Positions 11,792 to 54,850 of a stretch of 64,000 bases of DNA are shown here, in pieces. Positions within the stretch are counted from its first letter, which is position 1, and the number at the start of each line of letters is the position of its first letter. This DNA is from Rhodobacter sp. NTK016B (GTDB lineage: Bacteria; Pseudomonadota; Alphaproteobacteria; Rhodobacterales; Rhodobacteraceae), in the NCBI RefSeq assembly GCF_017303295.1, contig NZ_JAFKOK010000013.1:1-64000 (forward strand). The letters are read 5' to 3'. Made by a program: the position numbers and the translations under genes. The notes beneath the pieces are model-generated. The model saw only the letters and a program-made list of their open reading frames with translations, ran no database searches and had not been told where the DNA came from.

Positions 11792-11807
11792 CCCGTTTCC
11801 CCCTTGT

Positions 11808-39729: not shown

Positions 39730-40779
39730 TTAGTTTCTCCCTTCCAGGCGCCGCAGCCGGTAATGCGCCAACTCGTCGCCGATCGCGGCGAAAAGCAGGA
39801 TCAGACCGGTCATCGCCAGCACGGTGTTGGTGGTCAGGCCCTGCGTCTGCATGACGATGCCGCCATTCAGGATCACCGCCATCAGAAAGGCCGAGGCGAT
39901 CACGCCCAGCGGCGCGGCCCGCGCCAGAACGGCCACCATGATGCCCAGATACCCGTAATTGTTGGAAATTCCGCCCTGAAGACGGCCTACCGTGCCCGCG
40001 ACTTCCATCACACCGCCCAGCCCGGCAAGGGCGCCCGACAGCAACATGACCGCGATCAGGTGACGGCGCACGGGCATTCCCGCGTAACGCGCCGATCCCG
40101 CATTCGAGCCCGCCATGCGCACCTCGTAGCCCCAGCGGGTGACGCTGAAGATCACGGCCAGCACGACCGCCAGACCCAGCGCGATGGGCAGGCCCCAGTG
40201 AACGATACCCCAGACCTCGGGCAGACGGACGGGCAGTCGCGCGGTGGTGGCCAATGCCCGCCCCGACGGGTCAAGCCACGGCCCGGTGGCGACATAATAG
40301 ACCAGCAAAAGCGCCACGAAGTTCAAAAGCAACGTGGTGATCAGCTCGCTTACATCAGCATAGGCGCGCGCGAGGGTGGGCACGAGGATCCACAGCGCCC
40401 CGCCCAGCGCGCCCGCCGCGATCATCGCGGGCAACAGCGCCCAGTCCGGGCCCGGCACGAAAAGCGCGATCCCGGCGGCACAAAGCGCACCGATATTGAA
40501 CTGACCTTCGGCGCCGATATTCCACGCACCGATCCGCAGGCCCACCGCGACGGCAAGCCCGGTGAACAGCAGCGGCGAAAAGAGCAGGCCCAGATCCTCG
40601 AGCCCGAAGGACGAGCCGAACGTGGCGCTCAGCACCTGTGCGGCAAGGTCGATCGGGTCGATCCCGGCCATGGCCATCATCAGCGCCGTCACCGCCAGAG
40701 CCAGAAGCACCGACAGAACCCGCGCGGCGAAGGCTTTCCACGGCGGGGCGGAATGCAGGCGTTGCAGTTTCAGCCTCAT
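39730..40779 (-). CDS. Nucleoside/purine-type ABC transporter permease (first subunit)
   Basis: A 349-residue permease of the BPD_transp_2 family (YufP-like). It has about nine hydrophobic segments and the conserved cytoplasmic-face motif IGAWNIGAEGQFNIGALCAAG. Later conserved pieces are AGSNAGSARYAGMPV and ALAGLGGVMEVAG. The start overlaps the stop of the ATPase gene by ATGA. With the second permease it forms the membrane part of the importer. Confidence 0.93.
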   Translation of the reverse strand: MRLKLQRLHSAPPWKAFAARVLSVLLALAVTALMMAMAGIDPIDLAAQVLSATFGSSFGLEDLGLLFSPLLFTGLAVAVGLRIGAWNIGAEGQFNIGALCAAGIALFVPGPDWALLPAMIAAGALGGALWILVPTLARAYADVSELITTLLLNFVALLLVYYVATGPWLDPSGRALATTARLPVRLPEVWGIVHWGLPIALGLAVVLAVIFSVTRWGYEVRMAGSNAGSARYAGMPVRRHLIAVMLLSGALAGLGGVMEVAGTVGRLQGGISNNYGYLGIMVAVLARAAPLGVIASAFLMAVILNGGIVMQTQGLTTNTVLAMTGLILLFAAIGDELAHYRLRRLEGRN

Positions 40780-42338
40780 GCCGCGACCTCCGCTTGCGGA
40801 CCGCGCTGGCCGCCCATCATCAGGCCGATCTCGTCGATATCGGCCTGTTCACCCTCGACCACGCCCATGATCTGGCCGTGGAACATGACCGCGATACGGT
40901 CCGACAGGTTCAGCAATTCTTCCAGTTCCTCAGAGACCAGAACCACCGCGACGCCCTGATCGCGCAGTTCGGTGAAATAGCGCATCATCGTGTTGATCGC
41001 GCCGACATCGAGCCCGCGCGACGGATAGGCCGCGACCAGAACGCGCGAAGCAATCCGCATCTCGCGCCGCGCGACCAGCCGTTGCTGGTTCCCGCCCGAC
41101 AGGTTGCGCACCGGCATGGCGAAATCGGGGACCATGACCTCGGCGATGGCGGCGATCTTTTCAGCCAGCGCCCGCGCCGCGCGCGGCATGTACCACGGCC
41201 CGCGCGACACGGGCGGCTGGCGATATTCGCGCAGCACGGTGTTGTCGGTCACCGACAAAGCGGGGGCCAGACCCGAGCCGAGCCGGTCTTCGGGTATATG
41301 CCCGACCCCGAGCGCGGCCACCTTGCGCGGACCCAGCGGCGCGATGTCGTCGCCGTCCAGCAAGACCCGGCCCTTGTCGGGCGTGGCAAGCCCGGTGAGC
41401 ACCTGACACAGCTCGCGCTGGCCATTGCCCGCGACCCCGGCCACGCCCAGAATCTCGCCCGCGCGAAGCTGCAGCGACACATCTGTGAGCCGCCCTTTCA
41501 GCGTCACGCCGTCAAGCGTGAGCACCGGCGCCCCGGGCCCGGCGACGCCCTCAGTGCGTGTGCGCATGTCGCTGAGCACGATCTCGCGCCCGACCATTTT
41601 CTGCGCGAGCGAGCGTTCGGTGCAGGCCTCGGCCCATTCGGTCGCGACCTTGCGCCCCTGCCGCAGAATGGTGATGCGGTCGGCGATTTCGAGCACTTCG
41701 TCGAGCTTGTGAGAAATGAAGATCACCGCGTTGCCGCGCGCGACGAAGGCCCGCAGCGCGACGAACAGCTCCTGCGCCTCGGCAGGGGTCAGGACGGCGG
41801 TGGGCTCGTCAAGGATCAACACCTTGGCATCGCGCGACAGCACGCGCAGGATCTCGACGCGCTGTTGCTCGCCCGTCGACAGGTCGTCGACCGTGGCGCC
41901 CGGATCGACCGCCAGACCCAGCTTATGCGACAGATCGGCGGTGCGCTGTTCGAGCACCGAGCGATGGATGCGGGCGGGCGTATCCGCCCAGCCCAGATGC
42001 ACGTTCTCGGCCACGGTAAAGGCCTTCACCAGTTTGAAATGCTGGTGCACCATGCCGATCCCGGCGGCGATGGCGTCTTGCGGGGCGGTAAAGACGCGGG
42101 CATAGCCGCCCACATGGATTTCGCCCGCCTCGGGCTGATAAATGCCCGTCAGCACGTTCATCAGCGTGGATTTTCCCGCGCCGTTCTCGCCCAGAAGCGC
42201 GTGAATTTCGCCGGGGAAGACCTCGAGCGACACGTTCTTGTTGGCGATCACGCCGGGAAACACCTTGTCGATGCCGTGGAGCGCCACCAAAGGCGGCGCT
42301 CCGGCATCCAGCCCCAACCGTTGCCGGATATCCGTCAT
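40776..42338 (-). CDS. Nucleoside/purine-type ABC transporter ATPase (double domain)
   Basis: A 520-residue protein with two ABC domains, like RbsA, XylG and YufO. The first has GENGAGKST, GMVHQHFKLV, LSTGEQQRVEI and LILDEPTAVLTP. The second is degenerate in its P-loop (GVAGNGQRELCQ) but keeps LSGGNQQRLVARRE, as is normal for this family. I chose MTDIRQRLGL as the start, because the longer frame overlaps the binding-protein gene and adds an arginine-rich leader. It begins five bases after the binding-protein stop. Confidence 0.93.
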   Translation of the reverse strand: MTDIRQRLGLDAGAPPLVALHGIDKVFPGVIANKNVSLEVFPGEIHALLGENGAGKSTLMNVLTGIYQPEAGEIHVGGYARVFTAPQDAIAAGIGMVHQHFKLVKAFTVAENVHLGWADTPARIHRSVLEQRTADLSHKLGLAVDPGATVDDLSTGEQQRVEILRVLSRDAKVLILDEPTAVLTPAEAQELFVALRAFVARGNAVIFISHKLDEVLEIADRITILRQGRKVATEWAEACTERSLAQKMVGREIVLSDMRTRTEGVAGPGAPVLTLDGVTLKGRLTDVSLQLRAGEILGVAGVAGNGQRELCQVLTGLATPDKGRVLLDGDDIAPLGPRKVAALGVGHIPEDRLGSGLAPALSVTDNTVLREYRQPPVSRGPWYMPRAARALAEKIAAIAEVMVPDFAMPVRNLSGGNQQRLVARREMRIASRVLVAAYPSRGLDVGAINTMMRYFTELRDQGVAVVLVSEELEELLNLSDRIAVMFHGQIMGVVEGEQADIDEIGLMMGGQRGPQAEVAA

Positions 42339-42343
42339 CGTCT

Positions 42344-43462
42344 TCAGCCGTCGACGCCGGTGACGCCTTCGATGGACCAGTTCCATTCGTAGAGTTCGCG
42401 CTCGGTCATCGTATGACCGGCGGGGACGCGAATGGTGCCCGTGTTGTCCTTCATCTCGCCGACGAAGGGCGTCCAGCCGCCGAGCATCTGCTCACGCACC
42501 GCGTCGGCCTGCGCCGCGACCTCGGTCGGCACCGACTGGCCCCAGGCATCGCGATCGACGCCCTGACCCAGCGGCAGGATGTCTTCGGTCGGCGTCCATT
42601 CCCCGGCAAGGCGACGGCGCACCTGCTCGACATACCACGCCCCGAAATCGACGACGATCGACGAGATGTAGGCTTCCGGGCCATAGCGGCGGATATCGGT
42701 GTTCCACATCACCGCCTTGACGCCGCGCGCCTCGGCGACCTGCAGATAGGCGGCCTCGTCCATGATACCGAACAGCACATCGGCGCCATTGTCGATCAGC
42801 GCGGTGCCCGCCTGCGCGGCGGCCTGCGGATCGAACCACGAGTTGATGACGATGGCCTGCAAAGTGGCGTCCGGCTTGACCGTGCGCGCGCCCATCAGGA
42901 AGGCGTTGGTGCCCGAGTAGACCGAAGGGACCGGGAACGAGGCGACATAGCCCAGCTTGCCGGTTTCCGACATCAGGCCCGCAGCGACACCGGCGATATA
43001 GGACGGATACCAGTGCTGGACGTAATAGGTGCCCATATTCGGCAACGTGGTACGGCCGTCGCATTCATAGAACGCCACGTCGGGGGCGCGGTCGGCAACG
43101 TCATAGAGGAAGTCGCCATAGTTCGAGTTCACGAAGACCATGTTCGCGCCCTCGCCCACCATGCGGCGCAGGATGCGGCTGGCATCGGCCGAATAGGGCA
43201 GGTTCTCGACATAGGTGGTGGTGAGTTCGGGGAAAGCCGCCTCGACCGCCTGACGGCCCTGATCATGCGCCCAGGTCCAGCCCTCATCGGCGGTGGGACC
43301 GACATAGGCGAAAGAGATCTTGGCGTCGGCCTCGGCCACCGGGGGCAGCGCGGTCTGCGCACGAGCGGGACGGATCAGGCCGGTTTTCGGCAAGATCAGA
43401 CCCGCACCCGCGGCGGCGCCCATGTTAAGAAAGCCACGCCGGGAAAGGTGTCGGATGTTCAT
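42344..43462 (-). CDS. BMP-family (PnrA/TmpC-like) Tat-exported solute-binding protein
   Basis: A 372-residue periplasmic binding protein of the basic membrane protein family, whose characterised members bind nucleosides or purines. The N-terminus is a twin-arginine signal SRRGFLNMGAAAGAGLIL. Mature segments typical of the family are ISFAYVGPTADEGWTWAHDQGRQ, YYVQHWYPSYIAG and GADVLFGIMDEAAY. It is the first gene of a seven-gene operon and is transcribed from the divergent control region that also carries a LysR-type dyad. Confidence 0.92.
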   Translation of the reverse strand: MNIRHLSRRGFLNMGAAAGAGLILPKTGLIRPARAQTALPPVAEADAKISFAYVGPTADEGWTWAHDQGRQAVEAAFPELTTTYVENLPYSADASRILRRMVGEGANMVFVNSNYGDFLYDVADRAPDVAFYECDGRTTLPNMGTYYVQHWYPSYIAGVAAGLMSETGKLGYVASFPVPSVYSGTNAFLMGARTVKPDATLQAIVINSWFDPQAAAQAGTALIDNGADVLFGIMDEAAYLQVAEARGVKAVMWNTDIRRYGPEAYISSIVVDFGAWYVEQVRRRLAGEWTPTEDILPLGQGVDRDAWGQSVPTEVAAQADAVREQMLGGWTPFVGEMKDNTGTIRVPAGHTMTERELYEWNWSIEGVTGVDG

Positions 43463-43790
43463 CTTCAATATCTCCGCTGTATAGGGCCTCTTGGCGGGCC
43501 TGGGATGGACCTGCGGCACTGCAGCATGAAGAGCCGACAGGCCCTTTGCAGGCGCAGAATCGAGCCTTGCAGAATGCAATCGTTGCGAATAGGCGCTAAA
43601 TTTCGTGGCACTTGTTGCGCTGAAAGCAACACTTGACGCGGCGCCGTTTCCCGTCCCTTACTGATTCCGCACTGCAGCACGATAGCCGGCCCCGGTGGGT
43701 TCACCCCCCGACTCCGGCACCCCGCCTGCGACGCGCCCCAGTTCCGGCCCGGATCCTGTCTGGACCCGCGCCCCATTGATCGGAGCCCGC
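43463..43790. promoter_or_regulatory. Divergent control region of the two purine-type operons
   Basis: 328 bases with no gene, between the BMP-type operon (minus) and the Rieske operon (plus). It is relatively AT-rich in its centre and holds a TGTTGC-N7-GCAACA dyad at 43613-43631, plus extra half-site-like motifs TTGC-N5-GCAA (43567-43579) and TGCAATCGTTGCGA (43575-43588). Both operons probably start here. I could not assign -35/-10 boxes with confidence. Confidence 0.7.
43613..43631. promoter_or_regulatory. LysR-type operator dyad TGTTGC-N7-GCAACA, site 1
   Basis: A perfect inverted repeat with a T-N11-A core, the LysR-family binding form. The same twelve symmetric bases with the same spacing recur at 46311-46329, just after the lysR gene. 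Two matching dyads make the 45385 LysR protein the probable binder. Confidence 0.7.
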
Positions 43791-44087
43791 ATGACCGCCC
43801 GCATGACCGACCGTGTCATTCTGGAATTCACCGGCACGCTGACGCCGGCCAGCATGGACGCGTTCGCACATCATCGGGCGCAGCGGCTGACGCTTGATCT
43901 GGAGATCCTCGAATCGACGCCCGCGCGGATGCGGCTGGCGGTGGGCGGCCCGGTTGACCTGACCGATGCGTTCGAGATGGCGCTCAGCCTCGGGCCCGCA
44001 GACAGCCTGATCCTTGAGGTCAGGCGCAACAGCAATGACGGCCCGCGGCTGGACGACGCGGCACCGAACAGAGGAATGACGCAATGA
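43791..44087 (+). CDS. Acylphosphatase-like small protein
   Basis: A 98-residue protein at the head of the plus-strand operon, with CGGAG six bases before the ATG. The pattern of strands and helices (VILEFTGTLTPASMDAFAHHRAQRL, then LAVGGPVDLTDAFEMALSLGP, then DSLILEV) resembles acylphosphatase, including the terminal GP. The catalytic GxVQGVxFR arginine and the asparagine are absent, so it would not be an active acylphosphatase. Its stop overlaps the Rieske gene start (ATGA). I suspect a structural or assembly role for the split oxygenase; the fold assignment is tentative. Confidence 0.5.
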   Translation: MTARMTDRVILEFTGTLTPASMDAFAHHRAQRLTLDLEILESTPARMRLAVGGPVDLTDAFEMALSLGPADSLILEVRRNSNDGPRLDDAAPNRGMTQ

Positions 44088-44731
44088 GTATCAATGGCTG
44101 GTTCCCGCTGGCATTGTCGGACGCGATCACCGCAGGCAGCTCGGCAGGCGCGATCGTGAAGGGCTTGGAAGTCGTCGTGTGGCGCGACGATGCGGGCAAT
44201 GCACATGCATGGGAAGACCGCTGCCCGCATCGCGGCATGAAGATGAGCTTCGGCTTCGTACGCGGCGATCATATCGCGTGCCTCTATCACGGCTGGCAAT
44301 ACGGCGTGGACGGTCAATGTCAGAAGATCCCCGCGCATCCCGAACTCGACGTGCCCAAAAGCATCTGCGTCAACACCTATGGCGCCGCCGAGGCGGGCGG
44401 CATGATCTGGGCCGCACTGGGCGAGGCCGGCGACGCCCCCACCCTGCCCGACGCGACCGCCGTGCGCAGCCTCTATATCGAGGTGCCGCTCAACACCGCG
44501 CTGGCCGCCCTGCCCTCGGCCGTTGGCGCCAAGGGGTTCACGCCCGAAGGGCCTGTCGCGCGGCTGGACAGCCGCTGGGGCATGCTGCTTGTCGGCCTGC
44601 AGGAAATCGGCGAGACCAGCTGCGCGCTGCATATCGCCGTTGCAGGACGCGCAACGCCCGAAACCTGCGCGCAGATCGCCATGGCCGCCGCGCGCCTGCG
44701 CGATGACGTCGAAGCCGGAGTTGCCGCATGA
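44084..44731 (+). CDS. Stand-alone Rieske [2Fe-2S] protein of a split oxygenase
   Basis: A 215-residue protein whose N-terminal 115 residues are the Rieske domain of ring-hydroxylating oxygenases: ligands C47 and H49 in DRCPHRG, then C66 and H69 in CLYHGWQ, spaced C-x-H-x16-C-x2-H. There is no mononuclear-iron motif. The C-terminal 90 residues are a short alpha/beta tail of unknown role. It should carry electrons from a reductase encoded elsewhere to the two Rieske-less catalytic subunits (36504 and 50473). It overlaps both neighbours by ATGA, including the GST-like gene. In NdmCDE the extra Rieske is part of the NdmD reductase; here it is separate. Confidence 0.85.
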   Translation: MSINGWFPLALSDAITAGSSAGAIVKGLEVVVWRDDAGNAHAWEDRCPHRGMKMSFGFVRGDHIACLYHGWQYGVDGQCQKIPAHPELDVPKSICVNTYGAAEAGGMIWAALGEAGDAPTLPDATAVRSLYIEVPLNTALAALPSAVGAKGFTPEGPVARLDSRWGMLLVGLQEIGETSCALHIAVAGRATPETCAQIAMAAARLRDDVEAGVAA

Positions 44732-45360
44732 CCGACCCCGTTCTCTACAATTACGATCTCGATATCGACTGCTACACGGTGCGGATGATTGCGGGCTGTC
44801 TGGGCATCGCGCTAGAGCTGCGCAATGTCGACATGTTCCCCGGCAACGAACATCTCAGCCCCGAGATGCTGGCGCTCAACCCGCAGGGCCGCCTGCCGGT
44901 TCTGGTCGAAGACTCGCTGGTCCTGACGCAGCCGCTGTCGATCATTCTGCATCTGGCCGAAACCCGGTGTCCCGAACATCCGCTGCTCCCGACCGATCCC
45001 GGGATCGGCGCGCGGATGCTGGACTGGATGACCTTCGCCGCGCGTGAAATGGGTGTTGCCGGCGCGGCGCGCGCCACGGCGATGCTGGGCGCGCCCGGCG
45101 ATCTGGACGCCCTGCGCGCGCAGGCCCGCCGCGCGCTTCGGCTGGTCGACGATCACCTGACGCTGCAGGGCTTCAAGGGGCTGGGCTTTGTGGCCGGGCC
45201 CGAGGTAACGCTGGCCGATCTGATGCTGTTCCCGCCCTTTGCCCTGTCGCGCGATTTCGGCATCGACCACGATGCCTTCCCGGCGCTGCGCAACTGGGCG
45301 CGGCGCGTGCGCAAGACCAAGGGCTTTTCGACCATGCCGGGCATTCCGGACTATCACTGA
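44728..45360 (+). CDS. GST-like protein (NdmE-like structural partner)
   Basis: A 210-residue glutathione S-transferase fold: thioredoxin-like N-terminal domain with the cis-proline loop NPQGRLPVLV, and helical C-terminal domain with VTLADLMLFPPF. The position that normally binds the gamma-glutamyl group (Q/E followed by Ser) reads TQPLSII, with proline instead of serine, so glutathione binding is doubtful. Translationally coupled to the Rieske gene. In Pseudomonas putida CBB5, the GST-like NdmE is a structural member of the N7-demethylase complex, so I infer the same role here. Confidence 0.8.
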   Translation: MTDPVLYNYDLDIDCYTVRMIAGCLGIALELRNVDMFPGNEHLSPEMLALNPQGRLPVLVEDSLVLTQPLSIILHLAETRCPEHPLLPTDPGIGARMLDWMTFAAREMGVAGAARATAMLGAPGDLDALRAQARRALRLVDDHLTLQGFKGLGFVAGPEVTLADLMLFPPFALSRDFGIDHDAFPALRNWARRVRKTKGFSTMPGIPDYH

Positions 45361-45384
45361 CCGGATCACGCCCGGAGAGTTTTC

Positions 45385-46305
45385 ATGGACCTGCACCGCG
45401 TCGGCCTGCTTTCGAGCCGCGTGCACAATTTCACCACCGTGGTGCGGCTCGGATCCATCCGGGCCGCTGCCAAGGCGCTCAATGTCGCGCCCTCGTCGAT
45501 CAGCCGCACGATCAAGCAGCTTGAGGACGATCTGGCCGCGCCGCTGTTCCAACGCTCGCAACAGCGGCTGAAGCTGACCTCGGCGGGCGAGCTTTTATAT
45601 TACCACATCCGCCAATCGACGGGCGAGTTGAACCGCGCCCTGACCGAGATCGCCGACCTTCAGGGCCTGCATCGCGGCACCGTCACGCTGGCCACCGTGG
45701 AAAGCGCCGCGCGGGGCTTCGTGCCCGAGGTGATGGCGGGCTACTGGGTGCGCCACCCCGAGATCACCGTCGATATGAACGTGATGACCTCGTCGGATGC
45801 GGCCAATGCCGTGGCGCAGGGCGACGCCGATCTGGCCATGGTTTTCGACACCCGCCCGCCCCGCAATACGCGGCGCATCGCCTCGCTGTCGCTGCCGCTG
45901 GGCGTGATGGTCGCGCCGGGCAGCCGTCTTGCACGCAAGGAAACGCTTCGGGTGTTCGACCTGACCGGCGAGCGGGTGATCTTGTCGGATTCAAGCCTGA
46001 CATTGGGCTGGTCGGTCGAAGATGCGCTGGCGGGCTCTTTCGTCGAGTTTTCGCGCCGCGCACGGTCGAACTCGATCACCCTGATGATCGATCTGGCGCG
46101 ACGGGGGCTGGGCACGATCCTGCAAACCCGTATCGGCGCCGAGCAGGAACTCGAACGCGGCGACCTTGTGTTCATCCCCCTCAGCGACCCGCAGCTAAAG
46201 CCCCGCCGCCTGCATCTGATCGCCCGCCCGAAGGCGGAAATGTCCGAGGCCGCCTCGGCCCTCGAAGCGATGATCGCGGGCACGATGGAGCGTCTGAGCG
46301 GCTGA
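45385..46305 (+). CDS. LysR-family transcriptional regulator of the purine-type operons
   Basis: A 306-residue LysR regulator. The winged HTH lies at about residues 12-65 (LGSIRAAAKALNVAPSSISRTIKQLEDDLAAPLFQRS). The rest is a periplasmic-binding-like effector domain beginning GTVTLATVESAARGFVPEVM. It lies inside the plus-strand operon, between the GST-like and TPP-enzyme genes. TGTTGC-N7-GCAACA dyads lie directly after its stop and in the divergent control region, so it probably regulates both operons in response to a pathway metabolite. Confidence 0.9.
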   Translation: MDLHRVGLLSSRVHNFTTVVRLGSIRAAAKALNVAPSSISRTIKQLEDDLAAPLFQRSQQRLKLTSAGELLYYHIRQSTGELNRALTEIADLQGLHRGTVTLATVESAARGFVPEVMAGYWVRHPEITVDMNVMTSSDAANAVAQGDADLAMVFDTRPPRNTRRIASLSLPLGVMVAPGSRLARKETLRVFDLTGERVILSDSSLTLGWSVEDALAGSFVEFSRRARSNSITLMIDLARRGLGTILQTRIGAEQELERGDLVFIPLSDPQLKPRRLHLIARPKAEMSEAASALEAMIAGTMERLSG

Positions 46306-46310
46306 CCATC

Positions 46311-46329
46311 TGTTGCACTGGGCGCAACA
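46311..46329. promoter_or_regulatory. LysR-type operator dyad TGTTGC-N7-GCAACA, site 2
   Basis: Begins six bases after the lysR stop codon and 83 bases before the TPP-enzyme alpha gene. Same symmetric bases and spacing as site 1 at 43613, with different spacer bases (ACTGGGC against GCTGAAA). It marks a probable second regulated promoter within the plus-strand gene set. Confidence 0.7.
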
Positions 46330-46411
46330 ACTGCGTCGGAAATCAACGTCTATTCGGAACACTGTGGTCGCGTCATCCTGCGCTTGGAGTACAGGAAACG
46401 GATCCACCATC

Positions 46412-46912
46412 ATGAAGCAAAGCGCCGTCGAAGCGGTCATTCGCGGGCTCAAGAAGGCGGGCGTCAGCATCGTCTGCTACCTGCCCGATTCGCTGTTCAA
46501 GGAACTCTACCCGGCGCTCGATGCCGATCCCGATATCCGCACGATTCAGGTCACAAACGAAGGCGAAGGCGCGGCCATCTGCGGCGGGGTGTTCCTGTCG
46601 GGCAAACGCGCGGCGCTGGTGATGGAGAATTCGGGGCTGCGCGCCTCGGTCGAGCCGCTGGCGCGCATGGGGCTGGGCGCGGGCATCCCGGTGGTCATGC
46701 TGATGAGCTATCGCGGCGACACGGGCGAGAACAATTGGTGGGCGGTGCCGCATGGCATCACCATGGAGCCGGTGCTCAAAGCGCTGCGCATCCCCTATGT
46801 CGTCGAGCGCGAGGAAGACCGCATCGAGCGCGCGATCACCGACGCGTTCGAACTGGCCTATGCCAGCTATTATCACACCGCCGTGGCGCTGTCCGGGAGC
46901 ATCGTGCGATGA
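46412..46912 (+). CDS. TPP-dependent decarboxylase, alpha subunit (phosphono/sulfopyruvate decarboxylase-like)
   Basis: A 166-residue PYR-domain subunit resembling ComD and the N-terminal half of phosphonopyruvate decarboxylase. It has the cofactor-activating glutamate in TNEGEGAAICGG, the GVSIVCYLPDSLFKELYP start, and MENSGLRASVEPLARM. The start MKQSAVEAVI follows a weak AGGAAA site. The stop overlaps the beta-subunit start (ATGA), so the two form one enzyme. The 2-oxoacid substrate is unknown; the purine context gives no obvious 2-oxoacid. Confidence 0.82.
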   Translation: MKQSAVEAVIRGLKKAGVSIVCYLPDSLFKELYPALDADPDIRTIQVTNEGEGAAICGGVFLSGKRAALVMENSGLRASVEPLARMGLGAGIPVVMLMSYRGDTGENNWWAVPHGITMEPVLKALRIPYVVEREEDRIERAITDAFELAYASYYHTAVALSGSIVR

Positions 46913-47517
46913 AACGTTTTGACTGCATGACCCGCCTCGCCGCGCGGCTGGACAACGAACTGGTGATCCTGTCGCTGGGGGCTTCGGTCGACGAATGGTA
47001 CAATGCCGCGCCGCATATGCGCACGGCCTCGTTGTTTCAGCAACAACTCGGCTGCGTGACCCCGCAGGCCTTCGGACTGGCGGCGGGCCTGCCCGACCGG
47101 CGCATTGTCTCGCTCGATACCGATGGCGGGATGATGTTCAATCTCGGCATCCTCGCCACGCTGGGGAACGAGCAGCCGAAGAACCTGTTCGTCGTCGTCT
47201 GGGACAACGAATGCTACCAGTCGATCGGCGGGCCGCCCACGCATACTGCCTCGGGGCGCGTCGATATCGCCGCCATCGCCCGGGGCGCCGGGGTCGAACA
47301 TGCCTATACCGCGCGCACGCTCGACGAATTCGACGCGCATTGCGAGGCCGGGCTGAAAGCCGATACGCCCTATGTCGTCGTCGCCAAGGTTGCCGGCACC
47401 GTGCAGCCCGACATCCGGCGCAAGCATTCAGACGGGCGCGAAGACAAATACATCTTCGTGCGCCATGTCGAAGCGACCGAGGGCATCACCATCATGGGCC
47501 CGTCGGAGCATAATTGA
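46909..47517 (+). CDS. TPP-dependent decarboxylase, beta subunit
   Basis: A 202-residue PP-domain subunit resembling ComE. The TPP/Mg site is DTDGGMMFNLGILATLG followed by WDNECYQSIGG. A TRLAARLDNELVILSLGAS N-terminus fits this family. Together with the alpha subunit it would decarboxylate a 2-oxoacid such as a phosphono- or sulfopyruvate analogue. The stop TGA shares its A with the ATG of the next gene (TGATG), so translation is coupled. Confidence 0.82.
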   Translation: MKRFDCMTRLAARLDNELVILSLGASVDEWYNAAPHMRTASLFQQQLGCVTPQAFGLAAGLPDRRIVSLDTDGGMMFNLGILATLGNEQPKNLFVVVWDNECYQSIGGPPTHTASGRVDIAAIARGAGVEHAYTARTLDEFDAHCEAGLKADTPYVVVAKVAGTVQPDIRRKHSDGREDKYIFVRHVEATEGITIMGPSEHN

Positions 47518-49034
47518 TGGCCGGTGCCTTCGACATCCTCGTGGTCGGATCGGGATCGGGCGGCGCGCCGGTCGCGCGGCGCCTCGCCGATGCGGGCGCG
47601 CGCGTGGCGGTGATCGAGGCAGGCAGCGACCCGCTGGGCGATCCGGTGGTCGCAGACCCCGCGCAATGGTTCGCGCTGCAATCGGGGCGCTGGGACTGGG
47701 GGCATGCCTATCGCCCCGCCGCAGCCCTGAACGGTCGTGTCGTGCCGATCCCGCGCGGAAAGGCGCTCGGCGGCTCATCCGTCACCAACGCGATGATGTG
47801 GTACCGCGGCGTGCCTGACGATTACGCGCGCTGGAATGCCGTGGCACCTGGGTGGAGCTGGGCCGACTGCCTGCCCGCCTTTCTTGCCAGCGAAAGCTGG
47901 GACGGGGGCGGCCAGCGCGGCACGAATGGTCCACTGCAGATCACTCGTGCAAGCGCCGACCATCCGTTGACGCAGGCGATGCTCGCCGGAGGCGCGGCGA
48001 TGGGATTGCCCGTCATCGACGATCCCAACGGCCCCGAACCCGAAGGCGTCGCGCTCGCCAATTTCAACATCGACAAGACCGGCCTGCGCCACAGCTCAGC
48101 CGATGCCTATCTGCGTCCGGTCATCGGCAAGGGTGTCACGCTGCTCACCCGCACACGCGCGCTCTCGGTGCTGTTCGACGGCGACCGAGCGGTGGGGCTG
48201 CGCGTCGCCGATGCCGAAGGAACGCGCGACCTTTTCGCGGACAGGATCGTGCTTGCCGCCGGCGCGCTCGAAACACCGCGGCTGCTAATGCTGTCGGGGA
48301 TCGGCGCCAAGGACGACCTGCAACGTCTCGGAATAAAAACACGAATCGATGCACCCGAGGTTGGCCGCAACCTGCAGGACCATCCGCTGCTTCGCGCGCT
48401 CAACATCCGCCCCAAGCGCCCGCTCGGCCCCCCGGTCGGCAATGGCGGCGGCACGCTGACGATCTGGCGCTCGGACCCGTCGCTGCCTCAGGCAGACCTG
48501 CTGGCCTTTCCGATCCAGAATGCCTCGGGCGGGCCGGATCTGCGCGCGCGCTACGATCTGAGCGGCGAGGCCTTTGCCATCGGGGTCGGCGTTATGCGGT
48601 CGTATTCGCGCGGCTGGATGCGGCTGACCGGCACCGATCCCGACGATCCGCTGGAGATCGAGCCGAACCTTCTGTCCGACCCGCGCGACCTGACCGCGCT
48701 GACCACCGGTGTGCTACACCTGCAGGAGATGCTGGAAGGCCCCGCCTTCGCCGATCTCTTCGCCGGCCACCTTGCCCCCGACAGCCGCGTCGACCGTGCC
48801 GGTGCCGAAGCTTTCGTCCGCCTCGCCTGCTCGACCTTCTTTCACTGCACCGGAACCGCCCGGATGGGTGCCGACGCGCAGGCCGTGGTCACACCCCGGC
48901 TGCAGGTCAACGGCCTGCATAATCTATGGATCGCCGATGCCTCGGTCATCCCTGAAATCCCGGCCTGCCACACGCACGCCCCCGTCACCATGATCGGCGA
49001 ACGCGCCGCCCGCTTCATCCAGGAGGATGCATGA
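47517..49034 (+). CDS. GMC-family FAD oxidoreductase
   Basis: A 505-residue glucose-methanol-choline oxidoreductase. FAD binding is shown by DILVVGSGSGGAPVARRLADAG, the GMC signature by GKALGGSSVTNAMMWYRG, and the active-site end by FHCTGTARMG followed by LHNLWIADASVIPEIPACHTHAPV. I chose the ATG at 47517, which overlaps the previous stop as TGATG. It should oxidise an alcohol, perhaps a carbinol formed in the pathway, to an aldehyde, which would suit the aldehyde dehydrogenase further downstream. Its end overlaps the amidohydrolase start (ATGA). Confidence 0.9.
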   Translation: MAGAFDILVVGSGSGGAPVARRLADAGARVAVIEAGSDPLGDPVVADPAQWFALQSGRWDWGHAYRPAAALNGRVVPIPRGKALGGSSVTNAMMWYRGVPDDYARWNAVAPGWSWADCLPAFLASESWDGGGQRGTNGPLQITRASADHPLTQAMLAGGAAMGLPVIDDPNGPEPEGVALANFNIDKTGLRHSSADAYLRPVIGKGVTLLTRTRALSVLFDGDRAVGLRVADAEGTRDLFADRIVLAAGALETPRLLMLSGIGAKDDLQRLGIKTRIDAPEVGRNLQDHPLLRALNIRPKRPLGPPVGNGGGTLTIWRSDPSLPQADLLAFPIQNASGGPDLRARYDLSGEAFAIGVGVMRSYSRGWMRLTGTDPDDPLEIEPNLLSDPRDLTALTTGVLHLQEMLEGPAFADLFAGHLAPDSRVDRAGAEAFVRLACSTFFHCTGTARMGADAQAVVTPRLQVNGLHNLWIADASVIPEIPACHTHAPVTMIGERAARFIQEDA

Positions 49035-50473
49035 CCCAGGACTCCGCACGACCGAAAGCCAAGAAGGCCACGCCCGCTCCGAAACGCCCCGCGCCCGGGC
49101 AGCCCGATCTGATCCTGACGGCCGAGGCGGTCGTGACCATGGATGTCGATCTGAGCGTTCACGCGCCGGGCGCCATCGCGATCCGCGGGGACACCATCCT
49201 TGCCGTCGGCCCCGAGGCCGAAATCCTCGCCGCGCATCCCGGCGCGCCGGTGAAAGCGATGGGCCGCAAGGTCCTGATGCCCGGCCTGATCAACGCGCAT
49301 GCACATTCCGGTTTCCTGCGCGGGACGGCCGAACATCTGCCGGTCTGGGACTGGCTGACCCAGCACATCAACCCGATGCACCGTATGCTGCGCCCCGAAG
49401 AGGCCGAAGCCGCAAGCTATCTGTGTTATGCCGAAAGCCTCCTTTCCGGAACGACAACGCTGGTCGATATGTGGCGCTACATGCAAGGATCGGCCCGCGC
49501 GGCCGAGGTCCTTGGCAACCGGCTGGTCGCCGTGCCGTATGTCGGCGAACATCCCGATTACGACTACTTTGACACGCTGGACATGAACGAAGCGTTAATC
49601 GAGGCGTGGAACGGCAAGGCCGATGGCCGCGTCTCGGTCTGGGTCGGGCTCGAGCACTTGTTCTATGCCGACGAAGCCGGTCAGCAGCGCGCAATCGAAC
49701 TGTCGAAGAAGCACAAGGTTCCGTTTCACACCCATTGCTCCGAAGCCGAGATCGAGCTGCAGGAATATCTCGACCGATATGGCAAGAAGCCGATGGAAGT
49801 CTTTGAGGATCTTGGCTTCTTCGAGACCCCGCTGACCATGTTCGCGCATGCTGTCTGGCTCGATCCGTCCGAAGTCGAGCTGATCGCGAAATACAATGTC
49901 TCGGTCGCCCACAACCCGGTGTCGAACATGAAACTCGCCTCAGGGATCGCGCCCGTGGCCGAGTTCCTTGCCGCCGGTATTCCCGTCGGGCTGGGCACCG
50001 ATGGCGAGAAAGAGAACAACAATTTCGACATGGTCGAAGAGATGAAGACCGCCAGTCTTCTGGGCAAGCTGCGCCACCGGGACGCGGCGGCGATGGATAG
50101 CTGGGACTGCCTGCGCATGGCCACCAGCCTGGGCGCGAAAGCCATCGGTCAGGACGACCGGATCGGCAGCCTCGAACCCGGAAAACGCGCCGATATCATC
50201 GCGATACGCGCCGACACGCCGCGCATGACCCCGTTCTTCGCGGACGGTCCGTGGTTCAATCTTCAGCATAACCTCGTGCATGCGATCCGGGGCTCCGACG
50301 TGTCGATGACCATGGTTAACGGCGCGATCCTCGTCGAAGACGGCCAGTTGAAAACCGGCGACATGGCCGAGATCATCGCCCGCATCCACCGCCTCGCCCC
50401 CGGCCATTTCACCCGGCGTGCCGACTGGCTGTCGGCGAATGGCGGTGGCACCAAGCAATGGACGGATTCCTGA
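49031..50473 (+). CDS. MtaD-like amidohydrolase / deaminase
   Basis: A 480-residue amidohydrolase of the MTA/S-adenosylhomocysteine-deaminase and TrzN/AtzA group. Motifs are LMPGLINAHAHSGFLRG (HxH), FHTHCSEAE, FAHAVWLDPSEVEL, HNPVSNMKLASGIAPV and the metal aspartate in GLGTDGEKENNN. A perfect AGGAGG precedes the ATG. Residues 1-25 are a lysine/alanine/proline-rich leader absent from most relatives. It probably deaminates or dechlorinates an N-heterocycle. It is the third amidohydrolase of the divergent pair of operons. Confidence 0.88.
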   Translation: MTQDSARPKAKKATPAPKRPAPGQPDLILTAEAVVTMDVDLSVHAPGAIAIRGDTILAVGPEAEILAAHPGAPVKAMGRKVLMPGLINAHAHSGFLRGTAEHLPVWDWLTQHINPMHRMLRPEEAEAASYLCYAESLLSGTTTLVDMWRYMQGSARAAEVLGNRLVAVPYVGEHPDYDYFDTLDMNEALIEAWNGKADGRVSVWVGLEHLFYADEAGQQRAIELSKKHKVPFHTHCSEAEIELQEYLDRYGKKPMEVFEDLGFFETPLTMFAHAVWLDPSEVELIAKYNVSVAHNPVSNMKLASGIAPVAEFLAAGIPVGLGTDGEKENNNFDMVEEMKTASLLGKLRHRDAAAMDSWDCLRMATSLGAKAIGQDDRIGSLEPGKRADIIAIRADTPRMTPFFADGPWFNLQHNLVHAIRGSDVSMTMVNGAILVEDGQLKTGDMAEIIARIHRLAPGHFTRRADWLSANGGGTKQWTDS

Positions 50474-51333
50474 TGACCCGCGATCCCGTAGCGCTCAACG
50501 ACTGGTACGCCGTCGCCTCGCTGGCGGACCTTACGCAAACCCCTGAAACCACTCGGCTTCTGGGTCAGGACATCGCGGTCAGCCACGGCCCCGACGGCCC
50601 CGTCGCGACCCATCTGGGGACCGGTGCCGCGCTGCCCGTGCGCGAGAAATTCGAGTGCCTCTGGACCAGCCTTGGCACACCCGAAGGCGAGATCTTCGAC
50701 ATTGCCGAGGCGCAGGACCCGACCCGCCGTGTCCTTCCCTGCGGCTGGGTGACGATGCGCGCATCCGGCCTGCGGGTGGTCGAGAATTTCCTCGACATGG
50801 CGCATTTCCCCTTCGTGCACACCGATATCCTCGGCTCGGAGCCTCATACAGAGGTGCCGCATTACACGTCCGAAATCCGCCGCGATGTCGACGAGGTCTG
50901 GGCCACGAATTGCCAGTTCTTCCAGCCGCAGATGACCGCCGCGCGCCCTGAGGGCGAATTCGCGCAGCTGACCTATCGCGTGCCGTCGCCCTTCGTGGTG
51001 ATGCTCTACCGCAAGGTTCCCGATAGCGGCGGCCTTGAGGACGCCATCGCGCTGTTCATCCAGCCGCACGAGGCCGATCTGTGCCGCGCCCAGCCGGTGA
51101 TGTACCTGACCGATCAGAGCTCGACGGAAACGGCCCTGCTGCGCTTTGAGCAAGTGATCTTCCTTCAGGATCGGATCATCGTTGAAAATCAACGCCCTCT
51201 GCTGCTTCCTTTAGAGCCGAGAGCCGAAGTTCCCACCCGCGCGGACAGCTCATCCGTGGCCTATCGGCGGTGGCTGAAAGAGAAAGGCCTGACATTCGGA
51301 ACGACGGCGGAGCCGCTCGTTGGCGCCGCGTGA
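50473..51333 (+). CDS. Rieske-less non-heme iron oxygenase catalytic subunit (NdmC-like), copy 2
   Basis: A 286-residue paralogue of the 36504 gene product. The iron site is ENFLDMAHFPFVHTD (D108, H111, H116) with a candidate distal ligand D233 in FLQDRIIVENQRP. No Rieske ligands occur in the first 95 residues, although NDWYAVASL and LLGQDIAV echo the Rieske-domain outline. A stretch of about 55 residues around the iron site is nearly identical in the two paralogues. I prefer the ATG at 50473 (TGATG with the previous stop) to the one at 50458. It sits with deaminase, Rieske, GST-like and molybdenum hydroxylase genes, so N-demethylation or ring hydroxylation of a purine is the best inference. 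Confidence 0.83.
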   Translation: MTRDPVALNDWYAVASLADLTQTPETTRLLGQDIAVSHGPDGPVATHLGTGAALPVREKFECLWTSLGTPEGEIFDIAEAQDPTRRVLPCGWVTMRASGLRVVENFLDMAHFPFVHTDILGSEPHTEVPHYTSEIRRDVDEVWATNCQFFQPQMTAARPEGEFAQLTYRVPSPFVVMLYRKVPDSGGLEDAIALFIQPHEADLCRAQPVMYLTDQSSTETALLRFEQVIFLQDRIIVENQRPLLLPLEPRAEVPTRADSSSVAYRRWLKEKGLTFGTTAEPLVGAA

Positions 51334-54300
51334 TGCGGGTCCTCCGGCCCGATACGCTGGATGAAGCGTTGTCGCTTGTTGCGCAGGGCGCGGCGCGCCC
51401 GGTGGCCGGCGCGACGGCGTTTCAGGTCCTGTGGGCGCAAGGCATCGCCCGCCCGGACGCGCTGGTCGATATCGCGCCCTTCCTGCCCGCGGGGATCAAC
51501 CGGGCCGGCGGCAGTATAACCATCGGTGCGGGCACGACGCTGGAAACCCTGCGGCGCGCGGGCATCCCGCTTCTGTCGCGCGCGCTCGAGGATGTGGCCG
51601 CGCCGGGTATCCGGCGCCTCGGGACGCTGGGCGGACAGATCGGCTGGGGCGCGGGATGCCTGCTGTCGGTGTTGCTGGTACTGGAAGCCGAGCTTGAAAC
51701 CACGCATGGCTTGCGCCCGCTCACCGATTTTCTGACGCGTCCTGAGGGTGTTATTCTTAATGTCAGGCTTTCAGAGCCCACCGAAGATGCAAGACTGGTC
51801 TGGCGCAAATTCGGGCTGAGACAGGCTTTTTCTCCGGCGATGCTCACCGTTGCGGGGTTCAGGCAACCGGGCGCGCTGCGGCTTGCGATTGGCGGCGGAC
51901 TTGTCGCGCCGCGCCGCCTGCCCTTGAGCGAGGCTGCGGGCCAGTCCCATGACACGCTGCGACGCGCGGTTGAGGCCGAAGTCGAGATGCCCGACTGCCC
52001 CTTTCGCTCCGCCCTGTGGCGTCAGCGCAGCGCGGCGCGCGCGCTCGCGCAGGGGCTATTCCCGCAAACGGCACGAACAACGCGCCGAACCTTGCGTCCC
52101 TTGCCCCGGCGTGACGTGCCCAAACCCGGTTTGTTGAGCCCGGATGGCCCTGACTGGTACACCCGCCCTGACATGGCGCGCAAAGCGCGGGGCGAGATGC
52201 CCTATCTCACCGATATCCGCCGTCCCGACATGCTGATCGGTCGGATCCTGCGCGCGGCGCATCCGCATGCGCGGATCCTGTCGATCGATACCAGCGTCGC
52301 CGAGGCGCTGCCCGGCGTCGCTGCCGTGGTCACGCATCGCGATATTCCCGGTCTAAACGGCTTTGGCATCGTGTTTCAGGACCAGCCCGGCCTGTGCGCG
52401 GATAAGGTCCGCTATCTGGGCGACGCGGTCGCGGCGGTCGCCGCCCGTGACGAGGCGACCGCCGAGGCGGCGCTGGCGCTGATCCGCGTCACCTATGATC
52501 CGCTGCCCGTGGTCGAGGAGATGGCGCAGGCGCTCACGGACGGTGCGACGCGGGTTCACGAAAGCGGCAATCTGGTCACCGACATCCGGCTTGAGCGGGG
52601 CGATATCGACGCAGGCTTCGGCGAGGCCGCGCATGTGGTCGAGGATATTTACCTTACCCCCCGGCAGATGCACGGCTTCATGGAAACCGAAGGCGGCCAT
52701 GCCGAGGTGCTGCCGGATGGCACGCTGCTTGTCTCGGTCGGCGGACAACATGGCGCGCGCGACCGGGCACAGCTGGCGCGGCTGCTGGACCGCGACCCGT
52801 CCACAATCCGTGTGATCACAAGCCCCACGGGCGGTGCCTTCGGCGGCAAGGACGAATTGACCGTGCAGCCGGCTCTGGCGCTTCTGGCGCTCAAATCCGG
52901 CCGGCCCGTACGCCTGCAACTCAGCCGGACCGAGAGCGTCATCGCGGGCACAAAGCGCAACCCGATGCGGATACGGATGCGAACCGGCTGCGACGCCGAT
53001 GGCAAGATCGTCGCGCAAGAGGTTGATGTTCTGTCAGATTCCGGCGCTTATGCGTCGCTTTCCCCCGGCGTTCTGGAAACCGGGATGGAACATGCGGCGG
53101 GGCCGTACCTTATCAAGGCCCTGCGCACGCGCGGACGTCTGACCTATAGCAATAACGGCACGAATGGTGCGTTCCGGGGCTTCGGGGCCAACCAGATGGC
53201 CTTTGCCATGGAATGCCAGATCGACCGCCTTGCTGCGAAAGCGGGGCTCGACCCTGCCGAAATCCGCCGCCGCAACCTGCGCGACCCGGGAATGCCCGGG
53301 GCCTTGGGGCAGAAGGTTGCGGGCTCGGAGCGGCTGGAGGAAATGCTGGAAGCGGCGGCGGCCTCGCCGCTGTGGAGCGGCACGTCGGATGATGGCGAAT
53401 GGGTCACCGGAACCGGCATGGCGTTGATCTGGCAGGGAAACGGTCTGGGCACCATCCCCGAGGATCGGGGCGAAGGCGCGCTGAGGCTGGCGCCCGATGG
53501 CAAGATCGAAGTGCTGTGCGGGCTTGATGAGATGGGACAGGGCCTGCATGCCTCGCTTCGCGCGGTGGTGGCCGGCGCGCTGGGGATCGGACGCGAGGAT
53601 GTGCGGCCCGTGACAGGCGATACCGGCCGCGCCCCCGATAGCGGCTCGACCACCGCGTCGCGCGGCGGCTATGTCGTCTGGACCATTGCGCAGCAGGCAG
53701 GTCCGGTTCTGTCCGCCGACATGCTGCAGGGCGCGGCGCGGCTGCTCGACCGTCCGGTGACCGAGCTGACCCTCGTTCCCGGCGGTATCGGCGAGGCGGG
53801 GCGCAACCTGCCCGAGCCGATCCTGACCTTCGCCGATCTGGCACGGCGGGCGCTGCCCTCGGGCCTGCCGGTCGCGCATGTGGCCTTCGACTTTCCCAAA
53901 AGCGATTACACCAAGGGCAATGCGCGGTTCATCTTCTGCGCCGGGGCGACCGTCGCGCGCATCGCGGCAAGCCGGGTGAGCGGCGAGATCCGCGTCGATG
54001 CGCTTGAGATGCACACCGCTGCGGGACCGATCATCGATCTTGCCAGCTATCTGGGCCAGATGGAGGGCGGGCTGGTGCAGGGGCTGGGCTTCACGCTGAC
54101 CGAGGACGTGTTGATGAAGGGCGGCGCGCCGCTCACGCGCAACCTTGACACCTATGCCATGCCGACCCAGCGCGACGTCCCCCGGCATCTGAGCGTCACC
54201 GCCCTGCCCGATCTCGATCCCGGCGATCCCTATGGGCCGCGCGGCGCGGGTGAATTGGGGATCGGCGGCGTCACGCCCGCCATCGCCAATGCCGTGGCCG

Positions 54301-54374
54301 ACGCGATCGGCCACTGGCCCGCCAAAGCCCCGATCCCGCCCGACTGGGTGCAAAGCCGGATGGAGACGCGATGA
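51333..54374 (+). CDS. Xanthine-dehydrogenase-type molybdenum hydroxylase, FAD-Mo fusion subunit
   Basis: A 1013-residue protein that joins two subunits normally separate in three-gene hydroxylases. Residues 1-230 are the CoxM-type FAD domain (PVAGATAFQVLWAQ, TIGAGTTLETL, RRLGTLGGQIGWG). Residues about 265-1013 are the molybdopterin subunit, starting RPDMARKARGEMPYLTDIRRP, with PTGGAFGGKDE, NGAFRGFGANQ and the catalytic glutamate in RGAGELGIGG near 972. It should hydroxylate a purine or related N-heterocycle. Coupled to the previous gene by TGATG and to the [2Fe-2S] subunit by ATGA. FAD-Mo order within one chain is unusual, since known fusions join FeS and FAD. Confidence 0.88.
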   Translation: MRVLRPDTLDEALSLVAQGAARPVAGATAFQVLWAQGIARPDALVDIAPFLPAGINRAGGSITIGAGTTLETLRRAGIPLLSRALEDVAAPGIRRLGTLGGQIGWGAGCLLSVLLVLEAELETTHGLRPLTDFLTRPEGVILNVRLSEPTEDARLVWRKFGLRQAFSPAMLTVAGFRQPGALRLAIGGGLVAPRRLPLSEAAGQSHDTLRRAVEAEVEMPDCPFRSALWRQRSAARALAQGLFPQTARTTRRTLRPLPRRDVPKPGLLSPDGPDWYTRPDMARKARGEMPYLTDIRRPDMLIGRILRAAHPHARILSIDTSVAEALPGVAAVVTHRDIPGLNGFGIVFQDQPGLCADKVRYLGDAVAAVAARDEATAEAALALIRVTYDPLPVVEEMAQALTDGATRVHESGNLVTDIRLERGDIDAGFGEAAHVVEDIYLTPRQMHGFMETEGGHAEVLPDGTLLVSVGGQHGARDRAQLARLLDRDPSTIRVITSPTGGAFGGKDELTVQPALALLALKSGRPVRLQLSRTESVIAGTKRNPMRIRMRTGCDADGKIVAQEVDVLSDSGAYASLSPGVLETGMEHAAGPYLIKALRTRGRLTYSNNGTNGAFRGFGANQMAFAMECQIDRLAAKAGLDPAEIRRRNLRDPGMPGALGQKVAGSERLEEMLEAAAASPLWSGTSDDGEWVTGTGMALIWQGNGLGTIPEDRGEGALRLAPDGKIEVLCGLDEMGQGLHASLRAVVAGALGIGREDVRPVTGDTGRAPDSGSTTASRGGYVVWTIAQQAGPVLSADMLQGAARLLDRPVTELTLVPGGIGEAGRNLPEPILTFADLARRALPSGLPVAHVAFDFPKSDYTKGNARFIFCAGATVARIAASRVSGEIRVDALEMHTAAGPIIDLASYLGQMEGGLVQGLGFTLTEDVLMKGGAPLTRNLDTYAMPTQRDVPRHLSVTALPDLDPGDPYGPRGAGELGIGGVTPAIANAVADAIGHWPAKAPIPPDWVQSRMETR

Positions 54375-54850
54375 TCCGCTTCACATTGAACGGCGAGCCG
54401 GTCGAAATCGACGCCGCCCCCGACCGCAGTCTTGCGCGCATCCTGCGCGACGATCTGGGGCGGACCGGCACCAAGATCGGCTGCGATATCGGTCGCTGCG
54501 GAGCCTGTACGGTGCTGCTGGGCGGTCAGGCGGTCAATGCCTGTCTGGTCATAGCGTGGCGGCTCGCCGGGCAACACGTCACGACCATCGAGGGGCTCGA
54601 TTCCCTTCCTGTTTCCAAGGCGCTGGTCCAAGGCATGACCGAGGCCAACGCGTTTCAATGCGGCTATTGCGCGCCCGGCACGATGATGCAGCTGGCCGCG
54701 CTTTTGACCGACGAGCCCGAGGCCAGCGACGACACGATCCGCGCCGCGCTCGAGGGCAATCTGTGCCGCTGCACCGGCTATCATTCGATCCTGCGCGGGG
54801 CCCGGCGGGCTGCCGACCTGCTCAGGGCCGAGACCCAAGATAAGGACTGA
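54371..54850 (+). CDS. Molybdenum hydroxylase [2Fe-2S] subunit
   Basis: A 159-residue iron-sulfur subunit of the xanthine dehydrogenase/CoxS family. The plant-type cluster has C38, C43, C46 and C58 (GCDIGRCGACTVLLGG); the second cluster is FQCGYCAPG and NLCRCTGYHSI. It passes electrons between the molybdenum centre and FAD of the fused partner. Overlaps the preceding stop by ATGA. Confidence 0.95.
   Translation: MIRFTLNGEPVEIDAAPDRSLARILRDDLGRTGTKIGCDIGRCGACTVLLGGQAVNACLVIAWRLAGQHVTTIEGLDSLPVSKALVQGMTEANAFQCGYCAPGTMMQLAALLTDEPEASDDTIRAALEGNLCRCTGYHSILRGARRAADLLRAETQDKD

Follow-up and report, generated by a model that had tools for sequence, protein, structure and literature searches.

Rieske oxygenases are usually regarded as single chains that carry both metal centres. 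In the first 64,000 nucleotides of contig NZ_JAFKOK010000013.1 of Rhodobacter sp. NTK016B (assembly GCF_017303295.1; this whole stretch is referred to below as the window), complementary metal sites are found on two co-occurring chains, i.e. the window encodes a split Rieske oxygenase. One chain is a stand-alone Rieske [2Fe-2S] subunit of 215 amino acids (44084-44731, forward strand; Pfam PF00355, E=1.1e-21) with the ligands C47, H49, C66 and H69. The other is a catalytic oxygenase subunit present in two versions, CAT1 (50473-51333, forward strand; VanA_C, E=9.6e-18; another in-frame ATG at 50458) and CAT2 (36504-37358, reverse strand, 284 amino acids; VanA_C, E=1.1e-19), which are 58% identical and encoded 5.7 and 6.7 kb, respectively, from the Rieske gene. 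Joined to the Rieske gene by 4-base overlaps, all on the forward strand, are genes for an acylphosphatase-like small protein of 98 amino acids (43791-44087, with an in-frame ATG at 43803 as an equally possible start) and for an NdmE-related, glutathione S-transferase (GST)-like subunit of 210 amino acids (44728-45360) with GST N- and C-terminal domains. The window holds one Rieske/GST pair with two catalytic subunits, and this free-Rieske system of four parts is a relative of NdmCDE of Pseudomonas putida CBB5. It is undescribed in this form as far as our literature search shows: no paper describing a standalone-Rieske version was found among openly licensed PubMed Central (PMC) papers, a weak negative that applies to that collection. 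We consider it probable that the parts make up a heteromeric Rieske oxygenase, with its two metal centres on different polypeptides, that oxidises a purine-type substrate, most likely by N-dealkylation.

All 45 aligned Rieske sequences, the window subunit among them, keep the four ligands, and all 37 aligned catalytic sequences, CAT1 and CAT2 included, keep D108, H111 and H116 (CAT1 numbering, counted from the start at 50473) as well as another acidic residue, D233. A Pfam-type family search of the two catalytic subunits matched VanA_C and no Rieske model. The same division holds across the related loci scanned (overlapping loci on one contig counted separately): 117 of the 120 catalytic-profile matches above 200 bits contain D-x2-H-x4-H and lack C-x-H...C-x2-H, the remaining three being full-length oxygenases with both motifs, and all 100 Rieske subunits have the Rieske motif while none has the iron motif. 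These 100 comprise 91 that are not joined in frame to a reductase, at least three of which are cut or broken NdmD-type genes, and nine that are. One Rieske protein outside the filter for this count, from Komagataeibacter nataicola set 1 (L137:21309-21842), is without the second Cys. An earlier sequence-only reading of the window had proposed a 215-residue Rieske protein with these ligands and no iron motif, a GST-like protein coupled to it, and a Rieske-less catalytic subunit with D108/H111/H116. The family matches, gene overlaps and invariant residues bear out all three, but the conserved gene at 43791-44087 had been overlooked.

In the ndmABCDE cluster of our sample (L135), NdmC shares 41.8% and 43.7% identity with the window catalytic subunits, versus 23-24% for NdmA and NdmB; NdmE shares 33% with the GST-like subunit over 204 residues (E=2.8e-39), and the N-terminus of NdmD 38% with the Rieske subunit over 133 residues. 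A phylogenetic reconstruction places the Rieske-less catalytic subunits and NdmC on one side of a branch and the full-length oxygenases on the other with support of 99/99 (75 rows, 55 versus 20) once five long-branch rows are dropped (L137_21839m, L131, L087_2164m, L092 and L126); with these kept, the same branch has a Shimodaira-Hasegawa-like approximate likelihood ratio (SH-aLRT) support of 98 (80 rows). Rieske subunits, both free and NdmD-fused, also group apart from full-length oxygenases, with support of 89 from only 112 columns. The kinship to the split oxygenase NdmCDE that the sequence-only reading had claimed is upheld by these comparisons, the products encoded at 36504 and 50473 falling into one clade with NdmC instead of clustering with a Rieske-less family of other chemistry, and the 44728 product being related to NdmE. 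Of the unsplit proteins in the sample, those most closely related to the catalytic subunits are full-length Rieske oxygenases encoded beside BMP-type importer genes (L120-L126).

Four arrangements of the parts were seen. The first, as in NdmCDE, consists of a catalytic subunit, a Rieske-reductase fusion and a GST-like subunit and occurs in P. putida (two loci), S. meliloti and P. caffeinilytica; one P. putida cluster has an NdmA 92% identical to the query stretch of the solved NdmA, the second example lies on another P. putida plasmid, and S. meliloti has two catalytic genes. In the second (Qingshengfaniella, Rhizobium binae), the acylphosphatase-like, Rieske, catalytic, GST-like, amidohydrolase and BMP-importer proteins are all separate. 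The third is the window type, with one Rieske module and two catalytic genes, and recurs in Rhizobium tumorigenes, whose gene order is that of the window except for the 8-oxoguanine deaminase. The fourth, found in Variovorax, combines a separate Rieske protein and a GST-like subunit with a catalytic-reductase fusion; in Variovorax paradoxus (L008, 7313-10460) the catalytic subunit is fused to an FNR/ferredoxin reductase and the Rieske is free, the mirror image of NdmD. Such swaps link all four kinds of part (catalytic, Rieske, reductase and GST) as members of a single functional unit. Neither the free nor the fused arrangement is strictly one clade in the 75-row tree, and the data point to a large bacterial family of separable parts, one branch of which, NdmCDE, has parts fused. 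The architecture had been thought to differ from that of NdmCDE, which holds for the stand-alone Rieske, but it is not peculiar to this locus.

The split free-Rieske set is a conserved and widespread system. A scan of species genomes gave 79 loci, taken from the best 80 of 530 relatives (six contigs appear twice), each with up to 10 kb of sequence on either side and some ending at contig ends. Of the 79, 75 have Rieske and GST genes and 70 the acylphosphatase-like gene, and no NdmD-type reductase was found in any of them within that span. Two of the four loci without a Rieske gene (L034, L072) are clipped by contig ends or lie on short contigs; the others (L026, L027) are not clipped. Within the window's own family, 198 genomes were compared: the free Rieske (E<=1e-40) is encoded in 12, the catalytic subunit (E<=1e-60) in 11 and both in 10, the three genomes with only one of the two being 74-84% complete. 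The acylphosphatase-like gene occurs in 10 of the 12 Rieske-positive genomes versus 1 of the 186 others, that one a weak match. Fisher's test gives p=3.5e-14 for the Rieske-catalytic pair and likewise for the Rieske-acylphosphatase-like pair, uncorrected for shared descent. A sparser sample of the phylum has a catalytic-profile match (E<=1e-20) in 27 of 398 genomes, full-length oxygenases included.

An acid-Ser pair is the glutathione-site motif of GSTs. It is present in 7 of 94 aligned GST rows from all loci, the window protein not being one of them, which is weak evidence against an active glutathione transferase. The 98-residue window protein has no family match, but PF00708 is matched by 24 of its 39 relatives (E<=1, the best 6.1e-5). 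Acylphosphatases carry the motif GxVQGVxFR...N, with catalytic Arg and Asn; with this motif mapped by eye, the position following the conserved Phe varies among the 39 relatives (Arg in two) and columns 11-40 hold no conserved Asn. Judged by these residues, the product is probably not an active acylphosphatase, and a scaffold or assembly role may be envisaged. Counting overlapping loci of one contig separately, 82 free-Rieske loci have the gene and eight do not (L008, L036, L041, L068, L074, L087, L118 and L119, the last three with only ~800 bases of upstream sequence), versus 0 of 11 fused-type loci. The initial sort was 82 free with, 11 free without and nine fused without the gene, and L112, truncated by the end of its locus, was then moved by hand to the fused type together with L116 and L138, whose reductase frames are broken or cut; L134 is from the same genome as L112. 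No paper treating an acylphosphatase and a Rieske oxygenase together was found among openly licensed PMC papers.

Searching the whole genome with an NdmD-type protein (E<=0.001) gave no NdmD/VanB-type reductase on the window contig (C4), where only the Rieske gene was matched, in agreement with the sequence-only reading that the window is without a flavin reductase. The best matches elsewhere in this genome are C75:229656-230576, which lies beside another Rieske oxygenase, and C22:287201-287998, with weaker ones on C2 and C1; the C75 and C22 reductases are not specifically close to those linked to the split system.

The AlphaFold model of the Rieske subunit (predicted local distance difference test, pLDDT, 94.8) comprises the Rieske domain and, C-terminal to it, a domain of strand-helix-four-strand-helix topology (residues 124-214) that has no iron site. 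It matches full-length GxtA and SxtT with TM-scores of 0.66-0.77 on its own length of 215 residues (239-277 columns), the ceiling for the Rieske domain alone being about 0.57. The CAT1 model (pLDDT 90.2) matches SxtT/GxtA end to end with TM-scores of 0.80-0.86, and the catalytic-subunit profile, set against full-length oxygenases, skips ~45 residues where the Rieske domain binds its cluster. The models suggest that the two subunits may derive from complementary decay of two copies of one ancestral oxygenase. On its predicted fold the C-terminal domain of the Rieske subunit would be a catalytic domain that has decayed; this does not emerge from profile comparisons, in which the catalytic profile scored P=0.0039, full-length oxygenases 0.16 and, as a control, an unrelated GST 0.018. 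A fuller history can be offered tentatively and is in our estimation doubtful as a whole: a full-length oxygenase would have been duplicated and decayed in complementary fashion into Rieske and catalytic subunits, the dispersed form with GST-like and pseudo-acylphosphatase scaffolds would be the older and the NdmCDE and Variovorax forms later reductase fusions, and the window module would power two exchangeable catalytic subunits for the salvage of methylated or otherwise modified guanine.

A conserved bridging Asp passes electrons between the centres in Rieske oxygenases. In the mechanism that we propose, a reductase or ferredoxin would reduce the [2Fe-2S] cluster of the 215-residue subunit, from which electrons would cross via this Asp to the mononuclear iron of the separate catalytic subunit. 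Oxygen would be activated there and a purine-type substrate oxidised, with removal of an N-methyl or other N-alkyl group and release of an aldehyde. Non-catalytic scaffolding, as reported for NdmE, would be the role of the GST-like protein and, in this branch, also of the acylphosphatase-like one, and one Rieske/GST/acylphosphatase-like module would serve the interchangeable CAT2 and CAT1. We infer the formation of the complex, the electron path, N-demethylation and the substrate, and N-demethylation is our best guess by analogy, from kinship and gene context.

CAT2 adjoins, on the reverse strand, a guanine deaminase-like amidohydrolase (35164-36507; NCBIfam guan_deamin, 367.9 bits, just below the cut-off of 375.4) and an 8-oxoguanine deaminase-type amidohydrolase (37380-38795; NCBIfam PRK08203, 581.5 bits, passing the cut-off of 532), followed by a putative purine-type ATP-binding cassette (ABC) importer. 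The latter consists of two permeases (38792-39727 and 39730-40779, named by synteny with the annotated R. tumorigenes locus L006), an ATPase (40776-42338, from a family search) and a BMP-type binding protein (42344-43462) whose nearest matches are the basic membrane lipoprotein 3s99 and 6pi5, which binds atrazine. CAT1 adjoins, on the forward strand, another deaminase-like amidohydrolase (49031-50473), resembling MTA/SAH deaminase and N-ethylammeline chlorohydrolase, and a xanthine-dehydrogenase-like enzyme made up of a fused FAD/molybdenum (Mo) subunit (51333-54374), with pucC-like FAD-binding and pucD-like molybdopterin parts on one chain, and a 2Fe-2S subunit (54371-54850). Products of the oxygenase may be deaminated and oxidised by these enzymes toward urate. 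The guanine and 8-oxoguanine deaminase-like neighbours, the relationship of the binding protein to 3s99 and the atrazine-binding protein, and the pucD-like xanthine dehydrogenase indicate aminopurines; a modified guanine is a plausible substrate, in which our confidence falls somewhat short of even, and a methylxanthine is our second guess.

The best evidence that the free-Rieske type can demethylate purines is the context of plasmid pKNA08 of the kombucha acetic acid bacterium K. nataicola (L137, 506-23721), which encodes NdmA-like (67%) and NdmB-like (54%) proteins, formaldehyde-detoxification genes and two split-oxygenase sets; an acylphosphatase-like/Rieske/catalytic/GST set lies beside a PDR/VanB reductase, its catalytic subunit 48.6% identical to NdmC. 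From its gene content this region is a probable caffeine N-demethylation and degradation island, on which no paper was found among openly licensed PMC papers.

Several observations weigh against the proposed explanation. No formaldehyde-detoxification gene was identified among the annotated genes beside the window set, unlike in caffeine clusters. The thiamine pyrophosphate (TPP) enzyme, GMC oxidoreductase and aldehyde dehydrogenase genes of the island are unexplained by simple guanine N-demethylation. The catalytic-gene loci L026 and L027, both CAT1-type islands, have no Rieske, GST or acylphosphatase-like gene within 10 kb. A conserved VanB-type donor (Komagataeibacter-like, E<=1e-50) was considered and rejected, being present in 2 of 12 Rieske-positive versus 34 of 186 Rieske-negative genomes (p=1).

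The strongest competing explanation is a purine ring hydroxylase, converting for instance guanine to 8-oxoguanine, with the 8-oxoguanine deaminase completing a Mo-free bypass like that of HpxDE. The deaminase at 37380-38795 passes its curated cut-off, in the simple operons L004 and L005 the amidohydrolases likewise come closest to that model without reaching its cut-off (400.9 and 368.6 versus 532), the HpxDE Rieske enzymes oxidise hypoxanthine and xanthine (PMC7373994), and ring hydroxylation would fit the apparent lack of formaldehyde genes. The closest characterised relatives of the three subunits are nevertheless NdmC, the Rieske part of NdmD, and NdmE, which form an N7-demethylase, whereas an HpxD-annotated protein (L093) falls outside the Rieske-less clade, among the full-length oxygenases. 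Moreover, the island already encodes a xanthine-dehydrogenase-like enzyme, so that a Mo-free bypass is not needed. We regard ring hydroxylation as unlikely, although it deserves to be kept in view.

Somewhat less likely still is a non-purine N-heterocycle (a pterin, a triazine or an N-alkylated guanidine-type compound) with a larger side chain that the TPP, GMC and aldehyde dehydrogenase enzymes would process. These genes recur in CAT1-type islands, in 34-45, 36 and 28 of the 79 loci, respectively, and this explanation would accommodate the resemblance of the importer binding protein to the atrazine-binding protein, as well as the nearest solved structures of both halves, SxtT and GxtA, which act on guanidinium compounds. 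The guanine and 8-oxoguanine deaminase-type and xanthine-dehydrogenase-like neighbours and the NdmC kinship argue otherwise, as do the simple operons L004 and L005, which keep the importer and a deaminase-like gene beside the oxygenase and in 25 and 21 kb have no TPP, GMC or aldehyde dehydrogenase gene. That the free Rieske serves other oxygenases or is a general ferredoxin, its GST and catalytic neighbours being coincidental, is highly improbable despite the distance of the catalytic genes in the window, given that the catalytic subunit co-occurs in 10 of the 13 genomes with either (the exceptions being the incomplete ones), that Rieske and catalytic genes are adjacent in simple operons, and that the Rieske subunit groups with the NdmD Rieske domain apart from full-length oxygenases.

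The remaining genes of the island lie on the forward strand between the GST-like gene and the CAT1 neighbourhood or beyond it: a LysR-type regulator (45385-46305, from Pfam), a two-subunit TPP enzyme resembling sulfopyruvate and phosphonopyruvate decarboxylases (46379-46912 and 46909-47517, below curated cut-offs), a GMC oxidoreductase (47514-49034, from a family search) and an aldehyde dehydrogenase (54852-56351). The two-gene TPP enzyme (46379-47517) recurs in the island and has no obvious role in purine N-demethylation. A scan of 43300-46500 for sigma-70 promoters and terminators gave nothing above chance. Against Rfam at gathering thresholds, the window and the loci L004, L005 and L137 gave only a Cis52 small RNA (sRNA) and a tRNA, both in the window, and no riboswitch that would point to the substrate; the former is a match to the Ruegeria cis52 sRNA at 3674-3867 (106 bits). 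Elsewhere in the window, an MttB-family methyltransferase (14712-16268; Pfam MTTB, E=1.5e-218) and a dimethylglycine-dehydrogenase-like FAD/GCV_T protein (9245-11899) suggest the breakdown of methylated amines.

The data point to a shared electron module with swappable catalytic subunits and natural fusions in varied combinations, and suggest a route for the breakdown of modified guanine in rhizobia and their relatives. Since either centre can be altered or left out independently of the other chain, how electrons pass between subunits becomes open to direct experiment.

Among solved structures, SxtT/GxtA (SxtDIOX) and NdmA/NdmB have the nearest folds to both window halves, differing in that both metal centres are on one chain, with identities to SxtT/GxtA of about 20-25% in the fold comparisons. 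In the chlorophyllide a oxygenase (CAO) of Micromonas, one chain has the Rieske cluster and the other the mononuclear iron. CAO of Micromonas pusilla is reported to occur as two polypeptide chains (PMC9615114), and resembles the window system, by description, in that a Rieske oxygenase is divided over two chains; it differs in being an algal pigment enzyme with another class of substrate, and the excerpted text of that source mentions no GST-like or acylphosphatase-like partner. HpxDE is alike in applying a Rieske enzyme to purines (PMC7373994), but the HpxD-annotated L093 is full-length and is encoded next to a separate PDR/VanB reductase. The three NdmCDE proteins are described as assembling 3:3:3 into a complex that they need for solubility and that acts on 7-methylxanthine (PMC10380055), with NdmE as a structural component (PMC10380055; PMC4408171); its structure was still called unsolved in 2026 (PMC13237722). 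It has been called very unique in separating off its Rieske domain, and 18 further organisms, mostly Sinorhizobium and Mesorhizobium, have been listed with ndmCDE homologues of unknown function (PMC4408171). The window system shares with it a Rieske-less catalytic subunit of the same clade, a Rieske on another chain and a GST-like partner. In NdmCDE, however, the Rieske is fused to an FNR/ferredoxin reductase as NdmD, whereas the window Rieske stands alone at 215 amino acids in a locus without a reductase, with a fourth, acylphosphatase-like gene and two catalytic subunits per Rieske/GST pair; and the window has purine deaminase-like genes and a BMP-type importer where L135 has a nucleobase permease and formaldehyde genes. 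With NdmCDE and Micromonas CAO as precedents for split Rieske oxygenases, the window system is thus of a known kind.

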